From: a virus
Virus record (IMG/VR): IMGVR_UViG_3300014903_000015
Coordinates: 1 to 25,098 of that record
DNA length: 25,098 bases
Strand: one strand, 5' to 3'
Part shown: one piece after another, positions 6,489 to 19,364 of the stretch
Layout: every line of letters starts with the position of its first letter
Numbering within the stretch: position 1 is the first letter of the stretch
Notes under the pieces: model-generated
What the model was told of the DNA's origin: nothing
Database searches by the model: none
The model's input: only the letters and a program-made list of their open reading frames with translations
Made by a program: the position numbers and the translations under genes

Positions 6489-8123
6489 TTATTTTAAGTA
6501 TTGGTCTTGCTTAGCTTTTAATTCAGCTTTCTTTCTTTCGTCAAGCTCTTTCTTAAGCTTGTTGTATTTTTTCTCATCCTTTATAAACCAAGTATCTAAA
6601 AGATTTTTCTCTTCTTCAGCATAAGCCATGTTCACACCATCTTCCAAATCTAAGAATTCTTGATCATTCATTGATTTTGGTTGAGCATCACCCATTGGTT
6701 GAGCTAACCCATAAGTATTGTAACTTACTGGTGGTAGCTCATTTCCATTAGCATCTTTCATGATGACAGTATGAGTTTGTCTATCAATTCCTTTATCAGC
6801 TAAATCTTTATCGCTCATGTCATTCATCTGAGTCTCAGTCATTCCGAATTCATTCTTAGACATTTGACTTTGAACAGGAGATGCTAAACCAGGAATAACG
6901 GGAGCATCCGCTGAATTAGCTGTGATATCCAAAATTGGATTACCATTATAGTTCTTAAAATCTTCTGCATTGTTAACTTCTGGTGAAAAACCATTTTTGA
7001 TAGCCTCTTGATTAAAATCATTAATAACACCTTTTTTAGCAGTATTGATACCTTCAATTTTTTCTTGCATTTCATTCTGAACGCCAAGTAAAAACTTATC
7101 AGCCTCAGTTTTACGAACCTTATGAGCTTCTTCTTTTAAGGCTCTATTTAATCTTGTGTCAAGAACCATTTCTTTCTTATACTGATAATAAGGACTTTCA
7201 GGATTCAAGTAAGTATCCTCATATTCTTTTCTATGCTTGATGTTATCCATTGAATCAGCAAGTAAAGATCCTGCAGCTTGTTTATTCATTAATTCAATTT
7301 GACGCTCATCATCAAACATCTGTCTATTAACTTGCTCACCAGCTAATGCAGCATTGTAATACTGACCTCTGTTTTGCATTTTAAGAGATTCATCTAAAGC
7401 ATTTAATTGATTCTGAGAATCATAAAATCTTTGACTAGCACCGCCCATATTTGCTAGAGCAGTAGCACCAGAACCACCAGATAAATTTCTAATATTCTTT
7501 TGATCGTAATTATAAACTCTCTCCATTCTATTAGCCATAGAAGAACGAGCTTCTTGAGTCAAACCTAAATTTCTTCTATCTCTTGACTCACTAATCATTG
7601 TTTTGAAGTCAGATGAAGGATTATACTTAGAAAGCTTTTCAGTAGCTCCAAAAGCAGCTAACGTTGCTTTACCAGCATCCATAAGATAACCAGGAACATC
7701 TCTAAAACCTTCTTTATCTGGAGCGTAAGATTTATCATACTGAAATTCTTCAGAAGGATCCATCAATCTTAACTTATCATAAGTTCTTTGATAAGCATCA
7801 AGATTAGCATCACCATAAAGAATTGGATCACCTTGTTCATCTACTTGTTGTGTTTGAGAAGCAAGACCTGTATTGGCAGTTGTTTGTATAGGTTGGCCTC
7901 CACCACCTCCAGTTGAGGTAGGTTTTTTAACACCCCTTTTAAAGTCCTTAAAAAACTGAGAAAACCTACTAGGAGCCATAACACCTTTTTTCCAAACCTT
8001 CTTTTTAGGTTTTGAGTTTGATCGTATAGGCGTATAGTTTTCAGCTTCTTCTAATTTATCATACAAACCACCATAGCTATCTGCTTGAACACCACCAGGT
8101 AAAACGTTTCCTTCTTTTGCCAT
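6489..8123 (-). CDS. Internal virion/cargo-type protein, 544 residues
   Basis: ATG start (MAKEGNVLPG) lies 3 bases after the stop of the 269-residue gene. Residues 35-68 are strongly basic (KPKKKVWKKG), followed by a GGGGG linker at 72-76. Residues about 185-310 form a long, likely helical region rich in Gln, Asn, Met and Arg (ARSSMANRMERVY, YYNAALAGEQVNRQMF). The last 40 residues are Lys/Glu-rich and end KAELKAKQDQYLK, probably a coiled coil. Residues around 450 carry TVIMKDANG, which also occurs in the giant protein. There is no enzymatic motif. A small frame at 6884-7087 inside this gene is a shadow. A virion-internal or ejection role is inferred from position and from the helical, linker-rich composition. 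Confidence 0.85.
   Translation of the reverse strand: MAKEGNVLPGGVQADSYGGLYDKLEEAENYTPIRSNSKPKKKVWKKGVMAPSRFSQFFKDFKRGVKKPTSTGGGGGQPIQTTANTGLASQTQQVDEQGDPILYGDANLDAYQRTYDKLRLMDPSEEFQYDKSYAPDKEGFRDVPGYLMDAGKATLAAFGATEKLSKYNPSSDFKTMISESRDRRNLGLTQEARSSMANRMERVYNYDQKNIRNLSGGSGATALANMGGASQRFYDSQNQLNALDESLKMQNRGQYYNAALAGEQVNRQMFDDERQIELMNKQAAGSLLADSMDNIKHRKEYEDTYLNPESPYYQYKKEMVLDTRLNRALKEEAHKVRKTEADKFLLGVQNEMQEKIEGINTAKKGVINDFNQEAIKNGFSPEVNNAEDFKNYNGNPILDITANSADAPVIPGLASPVQSQMSKNEFGMTETQMNDMSDKDLADKGIDRQTHTVIMKDANGNELPPVSYNTYGLAQPMGDAQPKSMNDQEFLDLEDGVNMAYAEEEKNLLDTWFIKDEKKYNKLKKELDERKKAELKAKQDQYLK
6745..6771. repeat. 27-base near-identical repeat, copy in the 544-residue gene
   Basis: Matches 1175-1201 in the giant gene at 26 of 27 bases, in the same frame, encoding TVIMKDANG in both. 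The single difference is a transition. It may mark a shared sequence element between two internal-virion candidates. Confidence 0.6.
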
Positions 8124-8126
8124 ATC

Positions 8127-8936
8127 TTATAAATAGTTAAATGATGGGTTAAATGCGAAATTACCTCTTTGTAAATCTTCTCTAGCATCTCTTTTAGAAG
8201 CACCACTATTAATCAGTGATGTTCCGAAATTAACACCTGTTTCTATTAAATTACCCCCTGCGATACTACCCATCAAATCTTTCATACCGCCACCTAGAGC
8301 ATTTACATTATTTTTATTTTGTTGAGACATTTGATCATTCTCAAAAGAATCATATTCCGGAGAACCTTCAATAAAAGGATTCTTTAAATTATCATTAGCA
8401 ACAGTTTCAGTAATCTTTGAAATACTATTCGCTAATGGATTTTTAGAATCACCTCCAAACATTCCTTTAAATTTTCCGCCAAATATTCCTTTCTGATCAA
8501 TAGGTCCTGTTTTTTGAGTTGCTTCTTGAGCAATCTCCATAGCTCCTTCTCCAAAACCTTCAGCGCCTGCAGCATCCATCATCTTGTTTCCACCACCAAA
8601 TAAGTCCTTCATTCCACCGCCCATACCACTCATTCCTCCGCTTCCAATTGTTTTAGCAAGGCTTACGCCGAATGCAGCACCAGCCAAATCTTGTGAAACA
8701 GCTTCATCAAAAGTTTGATTTAAAGCTTCTTTAGTGTCTCCAGAAGCTCTTGATTTTGCAATAGCATGAGAAGCAGTATTTATTCCAGGAGCTACCCCCA
8801 TAAACATTTTTCCCCATAAATTTCTTTCACCAGTTTCTTTAAACCCAAGAACCTTTAACATTGGATCATTATCCCATTTTACAGGAACGTGTCTTTTTTG
8901 TCTTGATAATTCTGCTCTTTGATTAAATACTGCCAT
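8127..8936 (-). CDS. Glycine-rich small virion protein, 269 residues
   Basis: The ATG overlaps the stop of the 1355-residue gene as TAATG, so translation is probably coupled. The N-terminus (MAVFNQRAELSRQKRH) is basic. Residues about 45-130 are Gly/Ala/Met-rich with amphipathic or weakly hydrophobic character (LAGAAFGVSLAKTIGSGG, then GMGGGMKDLFGGGNKM). GGGMKDL occurs twice, at residues 107-113 and 216-222. The tail (SKRDAREDLQRGNFAFNP) is charged then aromatic. Small Gly/Ala-rich proteins next to tail genes in short-tailed phages are often injected and membrane-active. That is a family-level analogy here, not something the sequence proves. I recognise no named family. Confidence 0.85.
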   Translation of the reverse strand: MAVFNQRAELSRQKRHVPVKWDNDPMLKVLGFKETGERNLWGKMFMGVAPGINTASHAIAKSRASGDTKEALNQTFDEAVSQDLAGAAFGVSLAKTIGSGGMSGMGGGMKDLFGGGNKMMDAAGAEGFGEGAMEIAQEATQKTGPIDQKGIFGGKFKGMFGGDSKNPLANSISKITETVANDNLKNPFIEGSPEYDSFENDQMSQQNKNNVNALGGGMKDLMGSIAGGNLIETGVNFGTSLINSGASKRDAREDLQRGNFAFNPSFNYL

Positions 8937-11900
8937 TACATTCTATTTGAAGGTCTGAAATACGTTAACAAATTAGTGAAAATTATTCTTTCATCAATAC
9001 TATTGTCAAATACAAAGGTAAGCTTTATGTATTTACCTCGCATACGATTAAGTTGATCAACAGTTCTTAAAGGCGCTCTCAGTATTTGTTCTAAATACTT
9101 CCAACGTGTATCAGAAGTCATATCAATAATAAAGTTTTGATCCTGAGTTTCCATTACAATTTCTTTAATCATTGTCTCAGCATTCTCATTAATATTCATT
9201 CGAATGGTTCCGAAAACTTTTGCAAGTGAAGGAATATCATTCACAACAACTGTAACCTTAGAATCAAATACATTTCCAAAGTAACTTCCTCTTGGACCTG
9301 AATCATGAAGCCATAATTGATTATTACTTTGAGCATTAAATTGATAAACAAAGTTCTTAAACGGTAAAGCGTAAGTAAGACTAAACAAAGAAGGAGTATC
9401 AACGAACTTATCTGTTATCTCATTATAAAGTATTGTATTAGCAAAAGGTCTTATTTCTCCATCAGGTGTGTTTACAAAATGGAACATAGCCTCTTCATTT
9501 TCAAAATCGAAAACAGAGATTATTCCTTTGCCACCTAAAGGATTGTCTTCTAAATCAAGACTTGGAGCATATAAATTCACATATGAATTAATATTTCGAT
9601 CATCTGAAATTGAGTTAGAACCATCTTGCGCAAACCTCATGATATCTTTCTTAAACACATCAACCCAATAAAGAGCTTTTCCTGAATTTATTAAAGACCA
9701 TTGATGCTGATTACCATTTACAACAGAGATATAATCAACCCCATCTAATTTTGAACCAACACCTGTATAAAGATTTCCAAGATTTTGATCAACTAAAGCA
9801 CCTCTATCAAATGCTCTTAGTCTACCAAAAGCTCCAAACTGGAAAGAGTAAATTTGATTAAAGATGTACTCAGAACTAGTAATAGGCCCATACACACCTT
9901 TAAGGTCAGTAAAATCATTCGCTAAGAATATTCTGAATCTATCAATATTTTCACCATAAATTTTAACATCAGAATATCTCCAACGAATAGGGAATTTATT
10001 TAGATCTTTAAATTGAGAAAACAAACCAAAGTATTCTCTCAAGTTTGCAGATAAAAATAAAACTCCAGAAATATTAAACTCTTCAACATTAGAATCAGCA
10101 ACTACAGTTTGGCCATAGTCTTTATTTTTATAATCCCAGCTTAAGAACAAACCATTTTGAATCCAAGGAGTTATCACATCTGTTCCGAAAAAAGCAGCAG
10201 CAGGTTGTATTCCGATATCAGGCCACATAGGATTTCTACCACCAACATCTTGAGCTTGTCTTAATGGATGGTGTATATCCGACTCCAAAGGAAATAAGTG
10301 ACCCATTCCATAATCAGAATAAGCATCATTATCTTGAAATGTATTATCTAAAAGAATACCATATATTCTAGCAAAACCATGATAATCTAAAAAACAATCA
10401 CCACCAAAAACCTCAACATCATTTATAACATCAGGGTCTGCAATTGAAGGATTGTTTACCGGTTGAAAATGTCCAGTAGAAATGAATCTTGTTTGTTCAA
10501 TTGAAGATGCAGTTACACCTCCATAAGGACTAGAGTTTGGTCTTATATAGTTAGATATGAAATATGAAGCAAGTTGTTTTTCACTTCTGTCTTCATAACA
10601 AAAAGCACTACTAGCTGTACCAATATTACCATGAAATAAAAGTATAGTTCTATTTTTACCGTGACCATAAAGATCAGATTTACCCACTGTATTACCTGCT
10701 TGAAAGAAGGCATGAGGCTCTGGGTTTGGAGTTGAAACACCGGCCTCAATACCAAACGAATTGTAAAAATCTAAAGAACCTACATAGTTTTCAATCTTAC
10801 CTTCAGGAGTTCCACCATAATCAGCAAGTCTTAAATCTTGTATTTCACATTGATCACCAAGTAAAGGATATGGAGCATCAGCTGTATAATGATATTCACT
10901 ATCAGTACAATCAAGCTTTTGAATAACATAATTATTATAATGCATGTACTGTCTCCATCTAGGTTCATCATCACCAATCATTTCTGATTGAGAACATACA
11001 CCAACTAATTTCACTCTATCTATTTGTTGAGGCACTGGAAGTCTAGCAATATCAAAATCAATATCAGGCATATATAAAGTAGAAGTATTTGGTCTTACTT
11101 GAAATCTACTATCTGACTCTTGAGCTCCAGTATCTTTTTCTAAATGATAAAAAGCTTTTGATTGCTTAGGCCAATCTAATTTAATTGTATTCCCAGCATC
11201 TCCTGGAACCATTGGGGTGATAGTATTTATTCCAAACCAATTTTGTGTGGGAGAAGGCAACGGAGTAGTATAACCCTGTTCTCTAACACAAGGCATTATC
11301 AAACCTTGTCCAAGAATCTGAGTATCACGCTCAGCTCTTACAATCATAAAACCACTAATTCTTGATTTTAAATTAGTGATATCTATACCGCTAAATTTGA
11401 AACCAAGTATTCTTAACCGAGCTAAAGCACTAGCTCCAGTTTCACCATTAAGAACAGGTTCTTCACCTACTTCAGTTCCGTTTTCAGTAGTTCTAAAGTA
11501 GTCTCCATAATTATAAGAACCAATGTCTGTTGTTCCATCAGACTTTAATCTTGTCCAACTAATTTCTTCTTCATGTTGATTTTGAACAGCAACATCAGCA
11601 AGGTGATAAGTAAAGCTTGGATTACCAGCTATATCAAAAAAGACAATTCCAAACCTATATGTTTCACCTCTCCAAAATCCTTGGTATTGATGTGAGACTT
11701 GGGTTCCTTTATAATTTATATAATCATTATTGACTGTGTAATCTTCAGTATGAGATTGATTTAATCTCTTCGTAGAAATACCAGTCTTTGGCACTTGATG
11801 TGTAATCGGATCAAAACCAGCTGTAGGTTGTATATCTGCAGGTGGTGGATTTAGAGTAATCAATCTTCTTTCATCCGATCGCATTAATCTAAAACTAGGT

Positions 11901-13003
11901 TCAATAGTTAAATTCACCAATAGATCTTCCTGCTCATCTTCTGTTAATCGAAAAAACCTTTCATTAACATTCCCTTTGTATAAAACGTCATCTTTAATGT
12001 CGATTGTTTTAGCACCTTCAAAGGACACACGTTGAGCAGGGATTTCTAAAGGGTCTATTGGAGTTCCTGAATTAGACACATGATCAAACTCCATTGATGT
12101 ACCAGTAATCGTTGTCCGAGCAAATATGTTAGATTCAAAAGGAGAATCATCAGCTATATAGTGCACATATGCTATTTCAATCTCAACATATCTATCGTCA
12201 ATACCAACTATTTGCAACCTATTCCCTTTGCCACTATTAACGAAAGTCTCTGTTCCCTCCATTTCATATTCATTCCAATTTGTTGGATTTATAGAATCTT
12301 GAGTAACAAACAAAGGAAGCATTGGTGGATACCATGGAGTAGCATATCCATCTTGAGTAATCAATCGATAAGAATAAACATATTGACCAGCTGGAATATT
12401 TCCACCAATAGTTTGTTTAAACTTCATTATTCCCATAAGGAATTCTGATTGTTCATTTACCGAGTGTGGTGTATTTGTGACCGCAGAGTAATTACTAGCC
12501 AAATTAAGATTACCACCATCAAACTTAAAGGTAAAAGCACGAGGGGGGTTACTATCATCTTCAACACCATCAACCCAGTAGAGCCTATGACAACTAGGAT
12601 TTTCATAAACACCCTTAGCTTCAATTTGATTTTTGATAAGGAAAGTAAACTTGTCAGAAAAAGAATCATCACTCATTAATGTTTTATATGAGTTCTGAAC
12701 ACCAAACTCATCAAATGTTATTAAAGCAATTTCACCAACAGCTTCATCTTCTCTAACCAAATAAAGAATTAACAAGTTGTTAATTATTGTATATCCTAAA
12801 GGTCTATAATCACCAGCAGCTTCAGGGTTTAAAGTGATAGCTACTGAATTACCTTTTGAATTAACCCAACTAATTGAAGCTTGATCATTATATATAACCC
12901 TTCCGTTTTCACTAAGAATATAAGAATCTTTCCCTATTGCCATTAAATCAAAATCAAGATTTAATCCACCAGAAAAAGTATTTGAAGCTCTTTGTTTAGC
13001 CAT
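8936..13003 (-). CDS. Tail stabilisation / 'muzzle'-type protein, 1355 residues
   Basis: By position and size this corresponds to the large tail stabilisation protein of crAss-like phages (gp75 of p-crAssphage; the muzzle of the PhicrAss001 virion), which forms the distal part of the short tail. The N-terminus has the family-like pattern FSGGLNLDFDLMAIGKDSYI...NGRV. The body is rich in aromatic, Gly, Asp and Asn residues with beta-strand patterning. It includes a segment read as paired strands, GQYVYSYRLITQDGYATPWYPP, around residues 205-230. The end carries RMRGKYIKLTF followed by ERIIFTNLLTYFRP. No transmembrane or enzymatic motif is visible. Its ATG overlaps the stop of the tail tubular gene as TAATG, and its own stop overlaps the next start in the same way. 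The assignment rests on motif recall and synteny, not on a search. Confidence 0.85.
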   Translation of the reverse strand: MAKQRASNTFSGGLNLDFDLMAIGKDSYILSENGRVIYNDQASISWVNSKGNSVAITLNPEAAGDYRPLGYTIINNLLILYLVREDEAVGEIALITFDEFGVQNSYKTLMSDDSFSDKFTFLIKNQIEAKGVYENPSCHRLYWVDGVEDDSNPPRAFTFKFDGGNLNLASNYSAVTNTPHSVNEQSEFLMGIMKFKQTIGGNIPAGQYVYSYRLITQDGYATPWYPPMLPLFVTQDSINPTNWNEYEMEGTETFVNSGKGNRLQIVGIDDRYVEIEIAYVHYIADDSPFESNIFARTTITGTSMEFDHVSNSGTPIDPLEIPAQRVSFEGAKTIDIKDDVLYKGNVNERFFRLTEDEQEDLLVNLTIEPSFRLMRSDERRLITLNPPPADIQPTAGFDPITHQVPKTGISTKRLNQSHTEDYTVNNDYINYKGTQVSHQYQGFWRGETYRFGIVFFDIAGNPSFTYHLADVAVQNQHEEEISWTRLKSDGTTDIGSYNYGDYFRTTENGTEVGEEPVLNGETGASALARLRILGFKFSGIDITNLKSRISGFMIVRAERDTQILGQGLIMPCVREQGYTTPLPSPTQNWFGINTITPMVPGDAGNTIKLDWPKQSKAFYHLEKDTGAQESDSRFQVRPNTSTLYMPDIDFDIARLPVPQQIDRVKLVGVCSQSEMIGDDEPRWRQYMHYNNYVIQKLDCTDSEYHYTADAPYPLLGDQCEIQDLRLADYGGTPEGKIENYVGSLDFYNSFGIEAGVSTPNPEPHAFFQAGNTVGKSDLYGHGKNRTILLFHGNIGTASSAFCYEDRSEKQLASYFISNYIRPNSSPYGGVTASSIEQTRFISTGHFQPVNNPSIADPDVINDVEVFGGDCFLDYHGFARIYGILLDNTFQDNDAYSDYGMGHLFPLESDIHHPLRQAQDVGGRNPMWPDIGIQPAAAFFGTDVITPWIQNGLFLSWDYKNKDYGQTVVADSNVEEFNISGVLFLSANLREYFGLFSQFKDLNKFPIRWRYSDVKIYGENIDRFRIFLANDFTDLKGVYGPITSSEYIFNQIYSFQFGAFGRLRAFDRGALVDQNLGNLYTGVGSKLDGVDYISVVNGNQHQWSLINSGKALYWVDVFKKDIMRFAQDGSNSISDDRNINSYVNLYAPSLDLEDNPLGGKGIISVFDFENEEAMFHFVNTPDGEIRPFANTILYNEITDKFVDTPSLFSLTYALPFKNFVYQFNAQSNNQLWLHDSGPRGSYFGNVFDSKVTVVVNDIPSLAKVFGTIRMNINENAETMIKEIVMETQDQNFIIDMTSDTRWKYLEQILRAPLRTVDQLNRMRGKYIKLTFVFDNSIDERIIFTNLLTYFRPSNRM

Positions 13004-14196
13004 TAGAAAAAGTTTTTATTTGGTAATGGTATTAATTGGTTCCAGGCATTAGCAAGGTATTGCAACTCATCTTCATTAGGCAATTCATCATCACCTCTAG
13101 CTTGGCCACAAAGCCAATACCATCTATCTTCTAACTTTTGAAAAGCTTGGCCTGATATCTTTCCTCTTGTAAAATTAGCCCATTGAGATTGCCACATTAA
13201 ATAATGAGTTACTGCATCTTCATGAACCTCATCAATCATAGGCCACCCCTCTTCGTCTAATTGTATTCCCATATAGCTTATACCCACTTTACCCTCTTTA
13301 AGGCCACTAAAGTGAATATAACCATTGCTAATTGAATATTTAGATGTAGTATAACTACCATGTCCAAAACCATTCCCAGTAACTCCTTCAAGAATTGGAG
13401 AATCAGAATTCATACCATCATTCAAATGATGAGTGGCTTTGTTCGCTAAATTTGAACTAGTACTTTTGATATTAACTTTACAATTTTCTGGATCAGAAGT
13501 AGCTTCTTCAACAGGTAGTATTCTTCTTTGAATAACTCTAGTAGTGATATTTCCAGTCAAACTTGTAGTTGAAACAACCACATTCATGTTGATCAAAGGT
13601 GTATCTCCAATTATCTGGAACCAAGTAGAATCTGGAACAGCAGTATATGGTGGATTAACAGTATTTATTTGTTGAACAAAAGCAGCAACAATACTGTTTA
13701 AATTATCCCCCGGCATCACAGTATAGTTATAGATATTTGTAGAAACATTCCCACAGTTATCATTTGATACTGTAACGTTAATTACATCACCATCACTAAA
13801 AATACCAGATAAATCTATTTGATGAGCATTAGGAACTCCAGGATGAGCTTGTCTAACTTTGTTTCCATTATTGAAATCATTTGGATCATCAATTTTAGCC
13901 GGAGCTGAACCTTTATGGAAATGAGTAAAATCTTTAAATGTAACTTCAAGATGATCATTATCTTTCTTCAAAGCAATAAGATGAACATATCCAGCTGGCA
14001 AACAAGCTCTATAGTTTTTTACATCTATCTCACATTCAAATTTTTCATAGGAGCTCTTACTTCCTATTTTTAATTGAGCATCAACAGCCCAATTAGCCAT
14101 AGAACTAATCCTACTAGAAACATCTTCTAATTGAAGTTTGTCAACAACATTACCAATTATCCTTCTAATTGATACTTTATTTTTTACATCTCCCAT
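13003..14196 (-). CDS. Tail tubular / head-tail connector protein (P22 gp4-like), 397 residues
   Basis: The N-terminal 100 residues (SIRRIIGNVVDKLQ, then WAVDAQLKIGS, then NYRACLPAGYVHLIAL) follow the pattern of the crAss-like tail tubular/connector family. So does the C-terminal 90 residues (QLDEEGWPMI, EDAVTHYLMWQSQWANF, WYWLCGQARGDDELP). The partner would be the portal and ring stack on one side and the stabilisation protein, encoded next, on the other. Residues about 135-225 look like an extra beta domain (GDVINVTV, then YNYTVMPGD, then PPYTA) that resembles part of the 228-residue protein. The gene is coupled by TAATG overlaps at both ends. The family call is fairly confident; the inserted-domain interpretation is inference. 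Confidence 0.83.
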   Translation of the reverse strand: MGDVKNKVSIRRIIGNVVDKLQLEDVSSRISSMANWAVDAQLKIGSKSSYEKFECEIDVKNYRACLPAGYVHLIALKKDNDHLEVTFKDFTHFHKGSAPAKIDDPNDFNNGNKVRQAHPGVPNAHQIDLSGIFSDGDVINVTVSNDNCGNVSTNIYNYTVMPGDNLNSIVAAFVQQINTVNPPYTAVPDSTWFQIIGDTPLINMNVVVSTTSLTGNITTRVIQRRILPVEEATSDPENCKVNIKSTSSNLANKATHHLNDGMNSDSPILEGVTGNGFGHGSYTTSKYSISNGYIHFSGLKEGKVGISYMGIQLDEEGWPMIDEVHEDAVTHYLMWQSQWANFTRGKISGQAFQKLEDRWYWLCGQARGDDELPNEDELQYLANAWNQLIPLPNKNFF

Positions 14197-14669
14197 TACT
14201 TTATATTTTGAACATAACTTGGTGAACCGGTCCTCCCGTAATTATCTAAATTCATTTCTGAATAATCTTTCTTAAGAACAAAAAAGTTATGGTATATTAA
14301 TTTCTTCCATTTCTTGGATGGCACGAATTTGAACATTCTCCACTTCTTACCACAATCCCAAAACATAAATGGGAACTTACCATCTCTTAATTCTACCTTT
14401 TCTGTTTTACGTACTCTAACGCCATTTTCTACAACAAAGTAAGTCTTAGTAGGATGATAACGAATACATAGCGTAGAGATTACGAAAAGATGCCCCATCT
14501 TATTATGTAAGGACATTATTGAACCCTTATTTATAATTTCCTCCATCCAATACTTAAAATACAAATTTATTACCCTAGTGAAAGAAGCGATATTAACATG
14601 TTCTTTGTTCTTTAAGTTTTTAACATCTGATCTTAGTTCATCAACAACTTCATTGTAAACTCCAGACAT
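14196..14669 (-). CDS. IHF/HU-like protein of crAss-like phage neck module, 157 residues
   Basis: The start is placed at ATG 14669 (MSGVYNEVVD), 7 bases after the stop of the preceding gene. A longer frame from TTG 14735 would overlap that gene by about 60 bases. The protein is basic. Residues 28-64 (FTRVINLYFKYWMEEIINKG, then LHNKMGHLFV) match the helix-helix-strand core of the family annotated as 'integration host factor subunit' or transcriptional regulator next to the tail tubular gene in crAss-like genomes. Residues 95-130 hold many aromatics and lysines (FMFWDCGKKWRMFKFVPSKK). Given its place among neck genes it may be a structural ring component rather than a DNA-bending regulator; the sequence alone does not decide. 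Its stop overlaps the next ATG as TAATG. Confidence 0.75.
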   Translation of the reverse strand: MSGVYNEVVDELRSDVKNLKNKEHVNIASFTRVINLYFKYWMEEIINKGSIMSLHNKMGHLFVISTLCIRYHPTKTYFVVENGVRVRKTEKVELRDGKFPFMFWDCGKKWRMFKFVPSKKWKKLIYHNFFVLKKDYSEMNLDNYGRTGSPSYVQNIK

Positions 14670-14676
14670 TGTGTAT

Positions 14677-15396
14677 TCACCCTTGCGGTTCTGAAGTTTG
14701 TATCTCATTTCTAGCGTTATTAAGTAAACTTTCAACAGTTTGTAAAGTCATTCCTAATTCTTTTTGCATAATGTTTGTTGATATGAATTCAAACAAATTC
14801 ATTGTCAAAGGATACTGATGAACAGCATCATCAAAGCAAACCTCAACACATTCGCCTTCTTCATTTTCTTCAATCCATTTTAATTGAGTAGGATCCTCAA
14901 CAACACCTCTAGCATTAACATATTTTATTCCCTCATCCTTCTTGGATAAACCAATATAAACTGTTGTTCCAACAATAAAGTATCGTGTGATTAAATGACC
15001 AAACCTTGTTTCACTAACAAACTCATGAGTGTTAGCATCATCTTTTTGGAAATTAGTTTGCTTATCAATTTTACCAATAAAAAGAAGAGCTCTATTTTTT
15101 GGAAGGTCAACCAAATTAGGAATAACAACCTTCATTATTTTACAACCCCACTCAATACCCTGACAATTAACTGTATCAGATTGATCAATTTCTTGCAACT
15201 CTAAAATTCCGAAATCAGAAACCAATTGAGGGTTAATATCTTTTCCGTAATTAGTTTTTTGCTCAATACCGACTGCTCGATAACCTTGAATCCAAAACTT
15301 AATTTGTCTGATACCTAAAGTATCGTCATCAGAATTACCAGCACCTGCTCTAGCTATGTTTCTGAAATTGTATGCCCATTGATCTAGTGTTGCCAT
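14677..15396 (-). CDS. Neck/ring structural protein, 239 residues
   Basis: ATG start (MATLDQWAYN) lies only 5 bases after the T-tract of the terminator at 15402-15434. The N-terminus YNFRNIARAGAGNSDDDTLG followed by IRQIKFWIQGYRA fits a family found in the connector region of many Bacteroidota phages: an N-terminal helix, a Gly/Asp loop, and an 'RQI.F.I..YRA' helix. The middle is beta-rich (RALLFIGKI, RYFIVGTTVYIGL). The C-terminus is helical (NLFEFISTNIMQKELGM). There is no catalytic signature. The stop is TGA, one of the few non-TAA stops here. A ring or neck role between portal and tail tube is inferred from synteny. Confidence 0.82.
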   Translation of the reverse strand: MATLDQWAYNFRNIARAGAGNSDDDTLGIRQIKFWIQGYRAVGIEQKTNYGKDINPQLVSDFGILELQEIDQSDTVNCQGIEWGCKIMKVVIPNLVDLPKNRALLFIGKIDKQTNFQKDDANTHEFVSETRFGHLITRYFIVGTTVYIGLSKKDEGIKYVNARGVVEDPTQLKWIEENEEGECVEVCFDDAVHQYPLTMNLFEFISTNIMQKELGMTLQTVESLLNNARNEIQTSEPQG

Positions 15397-15401
15397 ATGT
15401 C

Positions 15402-15434
15402 AAAAAAAAAGGGTGTCGCAAAACACGACACCCT
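15402..15434 (-). terminator. Strong factor-independent terminator after the 228-residue gene
   Basis: Read on the minus strand, GGGTGTCG pairs with CGACACCC around the 7-base loop TGTTTTG. The stem extends by one A-T pair and is followed at once by nine T residues. It begins about 21 bases after the stop of the 228-residue gene and ends 5 bases before the ATG of the 239-residue gene, so it separates the head block from the neck and tail block. Confidence 0.9.
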
Positions 15435-15455
15435 CAAATTTACAAAATTTCTCAA

Positions 15456-16142
15456 TTATAATCCATTGATTAAAGTTGCAAAGGCATTTCCTTCACCAGG
15501 AGTACCATACCAATAGACTTCACGAGCTCTTTTGGTTTTTGCATCAACAGACCCAATTGGAACCTCTGGAGAATAATCGAATCTCACAGTATCGTATGAC
15601 GCCAAATTGATGTCATTTGGATCGATACCCTTATCAATTAAATCTTGAGGTTGACCTTCTGAAATTGTTCCAACAGCAGGGCCTACAACAATAGTACCAG
15701 CTGACGAATCAGTTGAACCACTACCTTCGATACCTTTACTGTCATCATTCTTAGCAGTAACAGTCGTTACAGCAGCAGCAGAAGCAGCAGTGTAAGGAGC
15801 ATCAGCTAAACCATCTGTCTGAATTTTTGTTGCAAAATATGCAGCAATATCAGCCAAAGCAGTTCCACCAGAAGGCACAGTATGACGATAGATTTTTTTC
15901 CATTTCTGAGCGCTTCTATCGTTTGAGCATACAGTTACTACGATTTGGTCACCTACAGCGTAAGTACCTCCAAACGTAATCGGAAAGTTGAAGTTAACCC
16001 CAACCGCTGGTGCGATAAACACAGCATTACCTTGTAAAGCCGAAACCGGAACAACAAAGCTAGGTGTGATATCAACTAAACCGTTTGTAACAGAAGGAGT
16101 ATGTCCTTCGGCTACAACAGCAATATAATCTCTTCCTATCAT
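15456..16142 (-). CDS. Beta-rich virion protein, candidate head decoration/fibre protein, 228 residues
   Basis: ATG start (MIGRDYIAVV) follows an A-rich leader that shares GTTTAATTAAAAAA with the capsid gene. Composition is Ala, Val, Gly and Thr-rich with few Lys and Gln compared with its neighbours, typical of an abundant extracellular beta protein. The N-terminal 60 residues form short strands (VVPVSALQGNAVFIAP). Residues 63-130 carry GDQIVVTVCSND, then YRHTVPSGG, then DAPYTAA, resembling residues 136-190 of the tail tubular protein. A CAG-rich tract near 15770-15790 encodes Ala/Ser repeats. It is the last gene before a strong terminator. I do not recognise a named family. A head-surface role is inferred from location and composition; a neck component is the main alternative. 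Confidence 0.83.
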   Translation of the reverse strand: MIGRDYIAVVAEGHTPSVTNGLVDITPSFVVPVSALQGNAVFIAPAVGVNFNFPITFGGTYAVGDQIVVTVCSNDRSAQKWKKIYRHTVPSGGTALADIAAYFATKIQTDGLADAPYTAASAAAVTTVTAKNDDSKGIEGSGSTDSSAGTIVVGPAVGTISEGQPQDLIDKGIDPNDINLASYDTVRFDYSPEVPIGSVDAKTKRAREVYWYGTPGEGNAFATLINGL

Positions 16143-16173: not shown

Positions 16174-16425
16174 TTACCTTCTTCCATTAGACACAATAAC
16201 TGTGCGTCTTCCGGCTTTAGGTTTTTTCACAAGCAAAGTTTTAGCTTTTTCCTCAAACTCTTTCAAAACAGGATATTTTGATAAGTCTAAGTTTCCACCA
16301 TGATCACGCTTAGCAATAAGTTTTACCAACTCAGGTTTCTTCATTGATGAATAACCTGAAATTTTCAAATCTTTAGCTAAGGCTGTGATACCTTTACTAG
16401 TGAGTTTTTCTAATTCCTTTTTCAT
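16174..16425 (-). CDS. Small SAP/Rho-N-like domain protein, 83 residues
   Basis: The ATG overlaps the stop of the connector gene as TAATG. Residues 12-43 (ITALAKDLKISGYSSMKKPE, then LVKLIAKR) match the helix-extended loop-helix pattern of the SAP or Rho N-terminal type: 'LA..L.I.GYS.MKK.EL...I'. Such domains usually bind nucleic acid. The C-terminus is strongly basic (VKKPKAGRRTVIVSNGRR). There is no membrane segment. A virion DNA-contacting or assembly role is possible, but its place in a structural operon could equally mean a small connector accessory. The domain call rests on pattern only. Confidence 0.78.
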   Translation of the reverse strand: MKKELEKLTSKGITALAKDLKISGYSSMKKPELVKLIAKRDHGGNLDLSKYPVLKEFEEKAKTLLVKKPKAGRRTVIVSNGRR

Positions 16426-17051
16426 TACTCTTGATTGTTGATTTCATTTAACTGGACTTGATAACCATCAAACCCTTCAATAGTAGCTAGCATCATTCGA
16501 ATTGCAATGTTAACGATCTCTTCATGAGTATGCTCAGGTAAATCACAATTCACAGGAGTTGTAATGTTTACCACAGCAGGTCTCTTTAAATAAACCATTC
16601 TCAATTCTTCAGGAGTGTTATCAGAATAAACTTGTATAGTTTTATTCCCACCCTGAACATTCTGCAGATACTGAGGATATAAATCCTCTGCCTTATTAAA
16701 AGGATCTCTTTGAGTTTCAGCGAAATCATCATGCTGAACTGGTGGAACTGGTAAACCAGTTTTAAGCCCACAGCCAGTTTCGATATCAGCTTCAATTCTT
16801 AAAACGAATAAAAAATCCGCTATAGCCGTCAAGTCGATAATATCGGTATTAGCAAACGGTATAGTATCACTAACTAGAGTTAACAAATCCTCTCTGACCT
16901 TTTCACCAGTCTCAAATGCCTTGTGCTTATTTTTCGTGTACTCCATTATGGCTTGGTTAATAAAACTGTCTTTTTCGACTGGAGTAAACCACTCGCTATT
17001 AGCTTTATCAATTCGCTCATCAGCGTATACGTGCATTTCGGCAATTGTCAT
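16425..17051 (-). CDS. Head-tail connector/adaptor-like protein, 208 residues
   Basis: ATG start (MTIAEMHVYADERIDKANSE) is 2 bases after the preceding TAG stop. The N-terminal helices (TPVEKDSFINQAIMEYTKNK), the central region, and the C-terminal PEHTHEEIVNIAIRMMLATI helix resemble a structural family common in Bacteroidota and crAss-like phages in which a conserved P..HEEIV..A helix ends a small connector protein. Its position after the capsid and before the neck genes supports an adaptor on the portal. No catalytic residues are visible. The stop overlaps the following ATG (TAATG). The exact ring in the stack cannot be assigned from sequence alone. Confidence 0.8.
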   Translation of the reverse strand: MTIAEMHVYADERIDKANSEWFTPVEKDSFINQAIMEYTKNKHKAFETGEKVREDLLTLVSDTIPFANTDIIDLTAIADFLFVLRIEADIETGCGLKTGLPVPPVQHDDFAETQRDPFNKAEDLYPQYLQNVQGGNKTIQVYSDNTPEELRMVYLKRPAVVNITTPVNCDLPEHTHEEIVNIAIRMMLATIEGFDGYQVQLNEINNQE

Positions 17052-17978: not shown

Positions 17979-19364
17979 TTAAGCGTATAATAACTGTCCA
18001 CAAGACAGGTTGTTTCTCAATACTAACATTGATTCAGAAAGTACTTGACACTCAAAAGAATCTTCAGCTGTAGCAGCATTCATTTCTTTTTGAGAATATG
18101 GGTTTACCATACCGTTTACATACTTCATGATCATTCCACGATTGATTTTTCCAGCTCCTTTAACTTTTCTTTCTAAGTTAGAGTATCCATCAATTTTAGA
18201 ATTACCAAAATCAGTAAATACCATTCTGAAAGACTCTTTCAAGTAACCTGTATTAGGATCTACATCAGAGTGTAGATTAGGATCATCAAACAATGGATTT
18301 TCAACCAATGTCATTTTCACACCAACAGCTTGATAAGTATCAAAGTTACCTCCAATTTGAATTGACTTACCAGCCTGAGCATCATAGATATAGTTTCCAG
18401 TATCTACAATCAAGTGCTTCATTGCAGTATGGAAAGCTTCCATTCCTGCCGCACCTGTGTAAACTAACCAATGCTTATCTTTATATCCACAATTTAATTT
18501 CAATTGTGTAAAGAAAGAAGTGATTTGTTTCTCAGTTAAAAGACCGTTGTATGTATCCGTATTAGCAGATGAGATTTGTTTTAATAAACCATCACCAGCA
18601 ATAATCGGCTTACCAGTCTTAGGATCAAGAACAGTTGAGTTACCATTAACGTCTACAGTTCTTTCACCATACCAATCATAAAGCTCTCTTTGATACAAAA
18701 ACTCTTCCATGGCATCAGCGAACCCTTGGTGAAACCACAATTTACTACCTTTGTTCTCAATCCAAAGAATATCTGTCAAGGCAGAACCTGACATTTTCTT
18801 AGACTTACGAGAGATAGTAGTGTAGTTATCATACCAGTCTGGGAACTTATTATTTTCATAACCTCTAAGAGAGCTTTCAGAAAACGCATTACCAGTGGTA
18901 CCAACAGTAACACCTCCAACTAAATCAGTAGCTAAAAGACCTGGCTCATTAGCCCCTTGACCTCCAGTCATCTGGAAAGTAAAGTTGTAACCAGCAATAG
19001 TAGTAGTTGGCTCTTGCAATACGATTGCAGATCTACCACTTTTAAATCTTACTATGTCATTCGGATTTAAATAATTCTCTTCCATCTCAACTGTGAAAGT
19101 AGCACCACCTGCACCATCTCCAACATTTGTTCCCGTAAGGGTAGAAGGTTTATTTAAACGACCCTGAACAGACCATTGAAATCTGTTTTCACCAATCATC
19201 TCTTCTTTTGCATAACGTCCTAAACCGTCAACAAAATAGTTTAATGAATACTGCGGGAATTGTTTGATCATCAATTTTGAGATCTCAGGATACTTTAGCA
19301 AATTCGCTACAAACGAATTCGACTCAATAGTATCTTTTCCATACGTTCCACTATGGATTTTCAT
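17979..19364 (-). CDS. Major capsid protein (HK97-fold, crAss-like), 461 residues
   Basis: It forms the icosahedral shell. The assignment rests on length (461), position after portal and scaffold-like genes, and sequence features. These are an N-terminal arm (YPEISKLMIKQFPQYSLNYF), GRYAKEEMIGENRFQWSVQG, a Gly/Thr-rich loop region at about 75-150, a likely spine helix (HQGFADAMEEFLYQRELYDW, about 217-236), and the later strands (HWLVYTGAAGMEAFHTAMKH). The C-terminus ends LRNNLSCGQLLYA. ATG 19364 is used; another ATG 7 bases upstream is out of frame. The leader contains GTTTAATTAAAAAA and no Shine-Dalgarno sequence. No protease domain is fused, and none is evident in the neighbours, so whether maturation involves cleavage is not clear from this window. 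Confidence 0.88.
   Translation of the reverse strand: MKIHSGTYGKDTIESNSFVANLLKYPEISKLMIKQFPQYSLNYFVDGLGRYAKEEMIGENRFQWSVQGRLNKPSTLTGTNVGDGAGGATFTVEMEENYLNPNDIVRFKSGRSAIVLQEPTTTIAGYNFTFQMTGGQGANEPGLLATDLVGGVTVGTTGNAFSESSLRGYENNKFPDWYDNYTTISRKSKKMSGSALTDILWIENKGSKLWFHQGFADAMEEFLYQRELYDWYGERTVDVNGNSTVLDPKTGKPIIAGDGLLKQISSANTDTYNGLLTEKQITSFFTQLKLNCGYKDKHWLVYTGAAGMEAFHTAMKHLIVDTGNYIYDAQAGKSIQIGGNFDTYQAVGVKMTLVENPLFDDPNLHSDVDPNTGYLKESFRMVFTDFGNSKIDGYSNLERKVKGAGKINRGMIMKYVNGMVNPYSQKEMNAATAEDSFECQVLSESMLVLRNNLSCGQLLYA

Follow-up and report, generated by a model that had tools for sequence, protein, structure and literature searches.

The virion genes of this phage raise the question of why two of its structural proteins, one of 228 residues and the other described as a tail tubular protein, carry a similar β domain. 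The initial annotation offered two answers: either a domain was duplicated within the genome, or a β module common in phages was recruited twice. The window that we analysed (the whole stretch of 25,098 nucleotides) is the virion module of a crAss-like phage, encoded on the minus strand, as shown by its ORFs and their Pfam and PHROG matches. The genes follow in the order terminase-sized ORF, portal (PHROG 6547), major capsid protein (MCP; 17979..19364; Pfam Crass_capsid PF23898, E 1.1e-41), a lone R3/R4-type ring protein (16425..17051; PF25710 at E 7e-5 and SU10_adaptor at E 9.9e-6, both slightly below the Pfam cut-offs), a short protein, the 228-residue protein (15456..16142), ring protein 2 (R2; 14677..15396; CrAss_Ring_2 PF25702, E 2.6e-23), a protein of 156-179 residues, ring protein 1 (R1; 13003..14196), which is the tail tubular protein, and the muzzle protein (8936..13003; crAss_MUZ PF25731, E 2.2e-100). 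In crAss001, gp32 is the MCP, gp34 and gp35 supply the R5/R4/R3 rings, gp36 is the auxiliary capsid protein (AUX), gp40 is R2, gp43 is R1 and gp44 is the muzzle (PMC10172136). The gene order of the virion module is the same in the window, so the 228-residue protein occupies the AUX position.

Two smaller genes of the module were also characterized. The short protein (83 residues, 16174-16425, minus strand) lies between the R3/4 ring gene and the AUX gene and contains a Rho_N domain; the related loci L001-L003 have an ORF of similar size in this slot. The gene at 14196-14735 (minus strand), in the slot of crAss001 gp42 (HU/IHF-like), was listed as 179 residues from a TTG, but an ATG start giving 156 residues fits better because it avoids an overlap with R2. 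Its product had no Pfam match.

The R1 protein, of 397 residues, was identified with confidence. It matched Pfam CrAss_Ring_1 (PF24228) over residues 8-391 at E 9.5e-38, with 130.6 bits against a curated cut-off of 27. Its AlphaFold2 model had the core fold of crAss001 gp43 (7qog_B; Z 14.4, with 201 aligned residues between model positions 3 and 394), and it shares with gp43 the gene order R2, gp42 slot, R1, muzzle. Model quality was mediocre overall (pLDDT 73) and approximately 92 in a large insert. Unlike R1 of the window, gp43 has only 236 residues and lacks this insert of approximately 150 residues.

The 228-residue protein was recognized through its fold. Its AlphaFold2 model (mean pLDDT 91) could be aligned with crAss001 gp36 (7qof_a) over the full length, covering 222 of 228 residues with a Z of 10.4 and an rmsd of 4.6. 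The gene lies between R3/4 and R2, the slot that gp36 has in crAss001. By sequence alone the comparison with gp36 was uninformative, the kinship being visible only through the fold. The protein is also shorter than gp36 (228 against 333 residues) and did not match Pfam crAss_AuxCP (PF25650), nor did this profile match in any of ten related records. Among six reference phages, PF25650 matched crAss001, DAC15 and phi14:2 but not cr10_1, cr118_1 or Fpv3, and is therefore a narrow profile. The structure of gp36 consists of a PH and an FD domain; residues 75-237 were named FD when the crAss001 structure was described (Bayfield et al. 2023, PMC10172136). On the predicted PH-like plus FD architecture and the gene slot, we assign the 228-residue protein to the crassvirus AUX proteins in the wider sense, with a predicted location on the capsid, and do not count it as a member of PF25650.

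How alike are the two β domains? All five of the motifs that had been reported in the same order in both proteins were present: GDQIVVTV at residue 64, ND at 74, YRHTVPSG at 85, IAAYF at 99 and PYTA at 116 in AUX, and GDVINVTV at 136, ND at 145, YNYTVMPG at 156, IVAAF at 169 and PYTA at 183 in R1. BLASTP of the whole proteins aligned AUX 55-119 with R1 127-186 (65 residues, 40% identity, 30.8 bits, E 2e-5). When the 228-residue protein was shuffled 20,000 times, this score against R1 was never reached, and no other window ORF of at least 80 residues exceeded 20 bits against R1. Relatives were collected from IMG/VR by means of the MCP, the 228-residue protein and R1. The family profile of the 228-residue protein matched R1 of most long-form relatives (E 6e-5 to 3.5e-10), and the pair of AUX protein and R1 insert was present in essentially every relative with a long R1, and thus beyond the window alone. 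Aligning the AUX domain (28 rows) with the R1 insert (19 rows) by hhalign gave 101 columns at 99% probability and E 2e-18, and using all rows gave the same result. This alignment spans AUX residues ~47-161 and R1 residues ~118-230, which shows that the homology extends past the segments first noticed.

Structure comparison gave the same picture. The AUX domain (residues 47-161, 15660..16004, minus strand, delimited by the structure-match range in VIA-align) matched domains of cyanophage and T7-type nozzle proteins, of the tail sheaths of A-1(L), PhiTE, Mu and Milano, and of flagellin, with Z of 9-12. The domain within the R1 insert (residues ~118-230, 13507..13845, minus strand, pLDDT ~92) matched the same sheath, nozzle and flagellin domains, together with FliC and FliD. 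Both models matched gp36 at residues ~75-237, for R1 with a Z of 10.8, and both are thus FD-type domains. The expectation that the two would prove to have the same fold is borne out at the level of the AlphaFold2 models, where it is supported by the shared structure targets and by the profile alignment. A LysM reading of the stretch YxVxxGDTLxxIA was less convincing: the LysM profile matched 5 of 34 AUX members (best E 0.0082) and PDB profiles matched mainly on this stretch, all of them weakly, whereas the predicted structures of both proteins resemble FD-type domains. The R1 insert and the central domain of AUX are homologous copies of one FD-type (FliD/flagellin-like) β domain.

Is the domain an addition to R1? 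Alignment of 37 R1 rows separated long forms (390-400 residues) from short forms (221-243 residues), in which the flanks are directly joined. The short R1 proteins of crAss001 (236 residues), DAC15 (232) and cr118_1 (241) have no insert. The segment therefore does sit between two family-typical ends, as the initial annotation had supposed, and its absence from the short forms, crAss001 included, means that it is not universal. From the same alignment the whole insert covers residues ~97-246 (13459..13908, minus strand; boundaries approximate). Long R1 proteins were confined to one lineage; eight deeper branches of the MCP tree and crAss001 have short ones. The phage records searched contained no cultured phage with a long R1. 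FD copies were counted in ten records of 25-71 kb: exactly two were found in each of six long-R1 records, one (in AUX) in each of the short-R1 records G003 and G004, and none in L044. As these records are fragments, further copies may exist. In a seventh long-R1 record, L003, the R1 copy is interrupted by a frame break within the insert at 8477-8501 (ORFs 7992-8480 and 8501-9175), which could be a sequencing error or a genuine lesion.

A different extra stretch of ~85 residues was observed near the same loop in R1 proteins of 307-310 residues from the gut Suoliviridae cr56_1, cr10_1 and cr4_1 (L083, L084 and L087). It gave no FD match. The loop thus seems to accept inserts, and looks like an insertion hot spot.

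The phylogeny of the FD domains was inferred from 110 columns, with three similar tail-sheath sequences as the outgroup. All 22 R1 inserts fell into one clade (support 100/99), which shows that the insertion happened once: the insert entered R1 a single time, in the ancestor of the window's lineage. The trees of the proteins themselves place two short-R1 relatives, L018 and L023, differently. In the R1-core tree the long forms grouped together (82/65) with the short L018 as their sister. In the MCP tree the lineage was split from the eight short-R1 branches at 100/100, with L018 and L023 weakly inside the long-R1 group, so that one loss may be needed; long R1 as one MCP clade was, in turn, not rejected (p 0.28). 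This permitted loss, of at least one insert, is what could be said for an insert that was ancestral in R1 and lost in the short forms, with AUX acquiring its FD domain from R1 or both proteins having one initially. Such a history would demand many clean losses, and the R1 proteins of crAss001, DAC15 and cr118_1 (232-241 residues) have no insert while distant AUX proteins, gp36 among them, do have the FD domain. We regard it as very improbable.

When did the single insertion take place? If the copies had been duplicated recently in the genome of the window, or been kept alike by gene conversion, pairs from the same genome should be the most similar. The pair in the window does rank high in similarity (28.7%; for this insert, 93% of other AUX proteins score lower). 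However, over 23 same-genome pairs the mean identity between AUX and R1 insert was 26.2%, compared to 25.2% across genomes, with a mean rank of 0.52; recent copying and gene conversion thus both fail to explain the likeness, and the insertion is old. In the FD tree, moreover, each copy groups with its own kind, the two copies of the window falling into different well-supported groups. We reject recent duplication or conversion, which is hardly credible on these data.

The remaining question is where the old insertion came from. In the best FD tree the R1 inserts lay among the AUX domains of their own lineage, apart from the distant AUX domains (84/82), and all crAss FD domains were separate from the sheath domains (100/100). 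The hhalign scores agreed: the R1 insert scored 102 against near AUX domains (E 7e-18), compared to 103 for near against far AUX, and 76-102 across the near and far sets, while the sheath set scored 43-55 against either the insert or AUX, albeit with a thin sheath alignment of three similar sequences. A strict TDSxxGTI motif occurred in 22 of 27 near AUX domains and 10 of 22 R1 inserts, but in none of the six far AUX domains or three sheath domains. These data point to the lineage's own AUX gene, and to its FD domain, as the likely donor. In the lineage ancestor this domain, encoded ~1.2 kb from R1, would have been copied to a surface loop of R1 between the two parts of its core.

Alternatively, the R1 insert could derive from a different phage that had an FD-type domain in, for example, a tail sheath or other structural protein, its likeness to AUX then reflecting general kinship. 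The fold is indeed widespread, with matches at Z 5-13 to the T7-type nozzle, the sheaths of Milano, Mu, PhiTE and A-1(L), flagellin and FliD. Individual R1 inserts and AUX proteins weakly match the tail sheath PHROG 165 (best E 1.9e-5 and 0.0041, respectively), and a clade of all AUX domains without R1 was not rejected (p-AU 0.45). It also counts against AUX as the donor that the branch leading to the R1 insert clade is long, at 0.99 changes per column, in a tree of 110 columns. The higher scores of the insert with AUX than with the thin sheath set argue against this origin, and a closer donor was not found: tblastn with single FD domains against 50,697 phage records gave nothing at E 1. We consider it possible but unlikely; the best reading, ahead of recruitment from elsewhere, is probably that R1 received a copy of the AUX domain. 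Each of the two original answers thus holds in part. Phages share this module widely, but the sheath copies tested are more distant from the R1 and AUX copies than these are from each other, and R1 acquired its copy a single time.

What might the domain do in R1? The pair was first noted as one that could put matching surfaces on head and neck. The assignment to head and neck agrees with the identities of the proteins, the 228-residue protein being of the capsid auxiliary type and R1 a portal-proximal neck ring. In crAss001, R1 forms a ring of twelve subunits at the barrel's portal end, R1 and R2 bear the fibre hubs, the FD domain of AUX contacts the A-domain of the MCP, and the portal blocks AUX sites at the portal vertex (PMC10172136). 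By analogy, we infer that twelve FD domains would project around the neck beside the portal vertex. There they could stiffen, brace or seal the head-neck junction; alternatively, they could form a docking collar at the neck, as the AUX FD domain does against the capsid. For extra β domains of tail sheaths, roles in stability or adhesion have been proposed (PMC9230969). A docking surface may be common to the head and neck copies. In its boldest form, this proposal has the domain that decorates the head copied to the neck-ring gene nearby with its binding mode kept, so that R1 docks through FD on capsid proteins around the portal vertex, where the portal blocks ordinary AUX sites in crAss001; we offer this as a rather unlikely speculation. 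Taken as a whole, the account of homologous FD copies, a single insertion into R1, a likely donor in the lineage's own AUX and a role at the neck as proposed from crAss001 seems to us reasonably probable.

Two further observations concern the neck. The cysteine at R1 residue 148 of the window (13753-13755) belongs to an [ND]CG or SCG motif that 20 of 22 R1 inserts share (the exceptions being L012 and L019). As the barrel proteins of crAss001 are linked by disulfides (PMC10172136), an inter-subunit bond through this cysteine is conceivable. Tail hub genes (THA/THB) were not found between AUX and R2 in long-R1 or short-R1 genomes (window 13003-16142 and loci L001-L077). The tail hub profile PF25724 had no match in the ten records, but among the six reference phages it matched only crAss001 and DAC15, so that absence of a hub is weakly shown. 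We rejected replacement of THA/THB by the R1 insert, since the short-R1 relatives also have no hub genes in this interval and the absence thus does not go with the insert. This lineage may attach its fibres to the neck in another way than crAss001, or through unrecognised proteins.

The architectures of R1 and AUX and the FD domain itself are known; the novelty is the place of the domain in R1. The 228-residue protein resembles gp36 in its whole-length fold, FD domain and gene slot, and differs in that a second FD copy is present in R1. The extra FD-type domains of contractile sheaths (Milano, 7-7-1, PhiTE and Mu) and of the T7-type nozzle gp12 have the same fold and are likewise additions to tail proteins, but their host proteins are others and the sequence similarity is weak, as the scores for the sheaths tested show. 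The D2-D3 domains of flagellin FliC and the flagellar cap FliD share the fold (Z 5-10), but these are bacterial flagellar proteins and gave no significant sequence match in this analysis. As phage surface proteins were already known to gain FD- or Ig-like domains, the advance is modest. It provides a case of single origin, in which a virus bears one structural domain on both its head and its neck and close relatives have no insert. With such relatives at hand, the effect of an added domain on a phage neck becomes open to study, as does the growth of neck rings in podoviruses.
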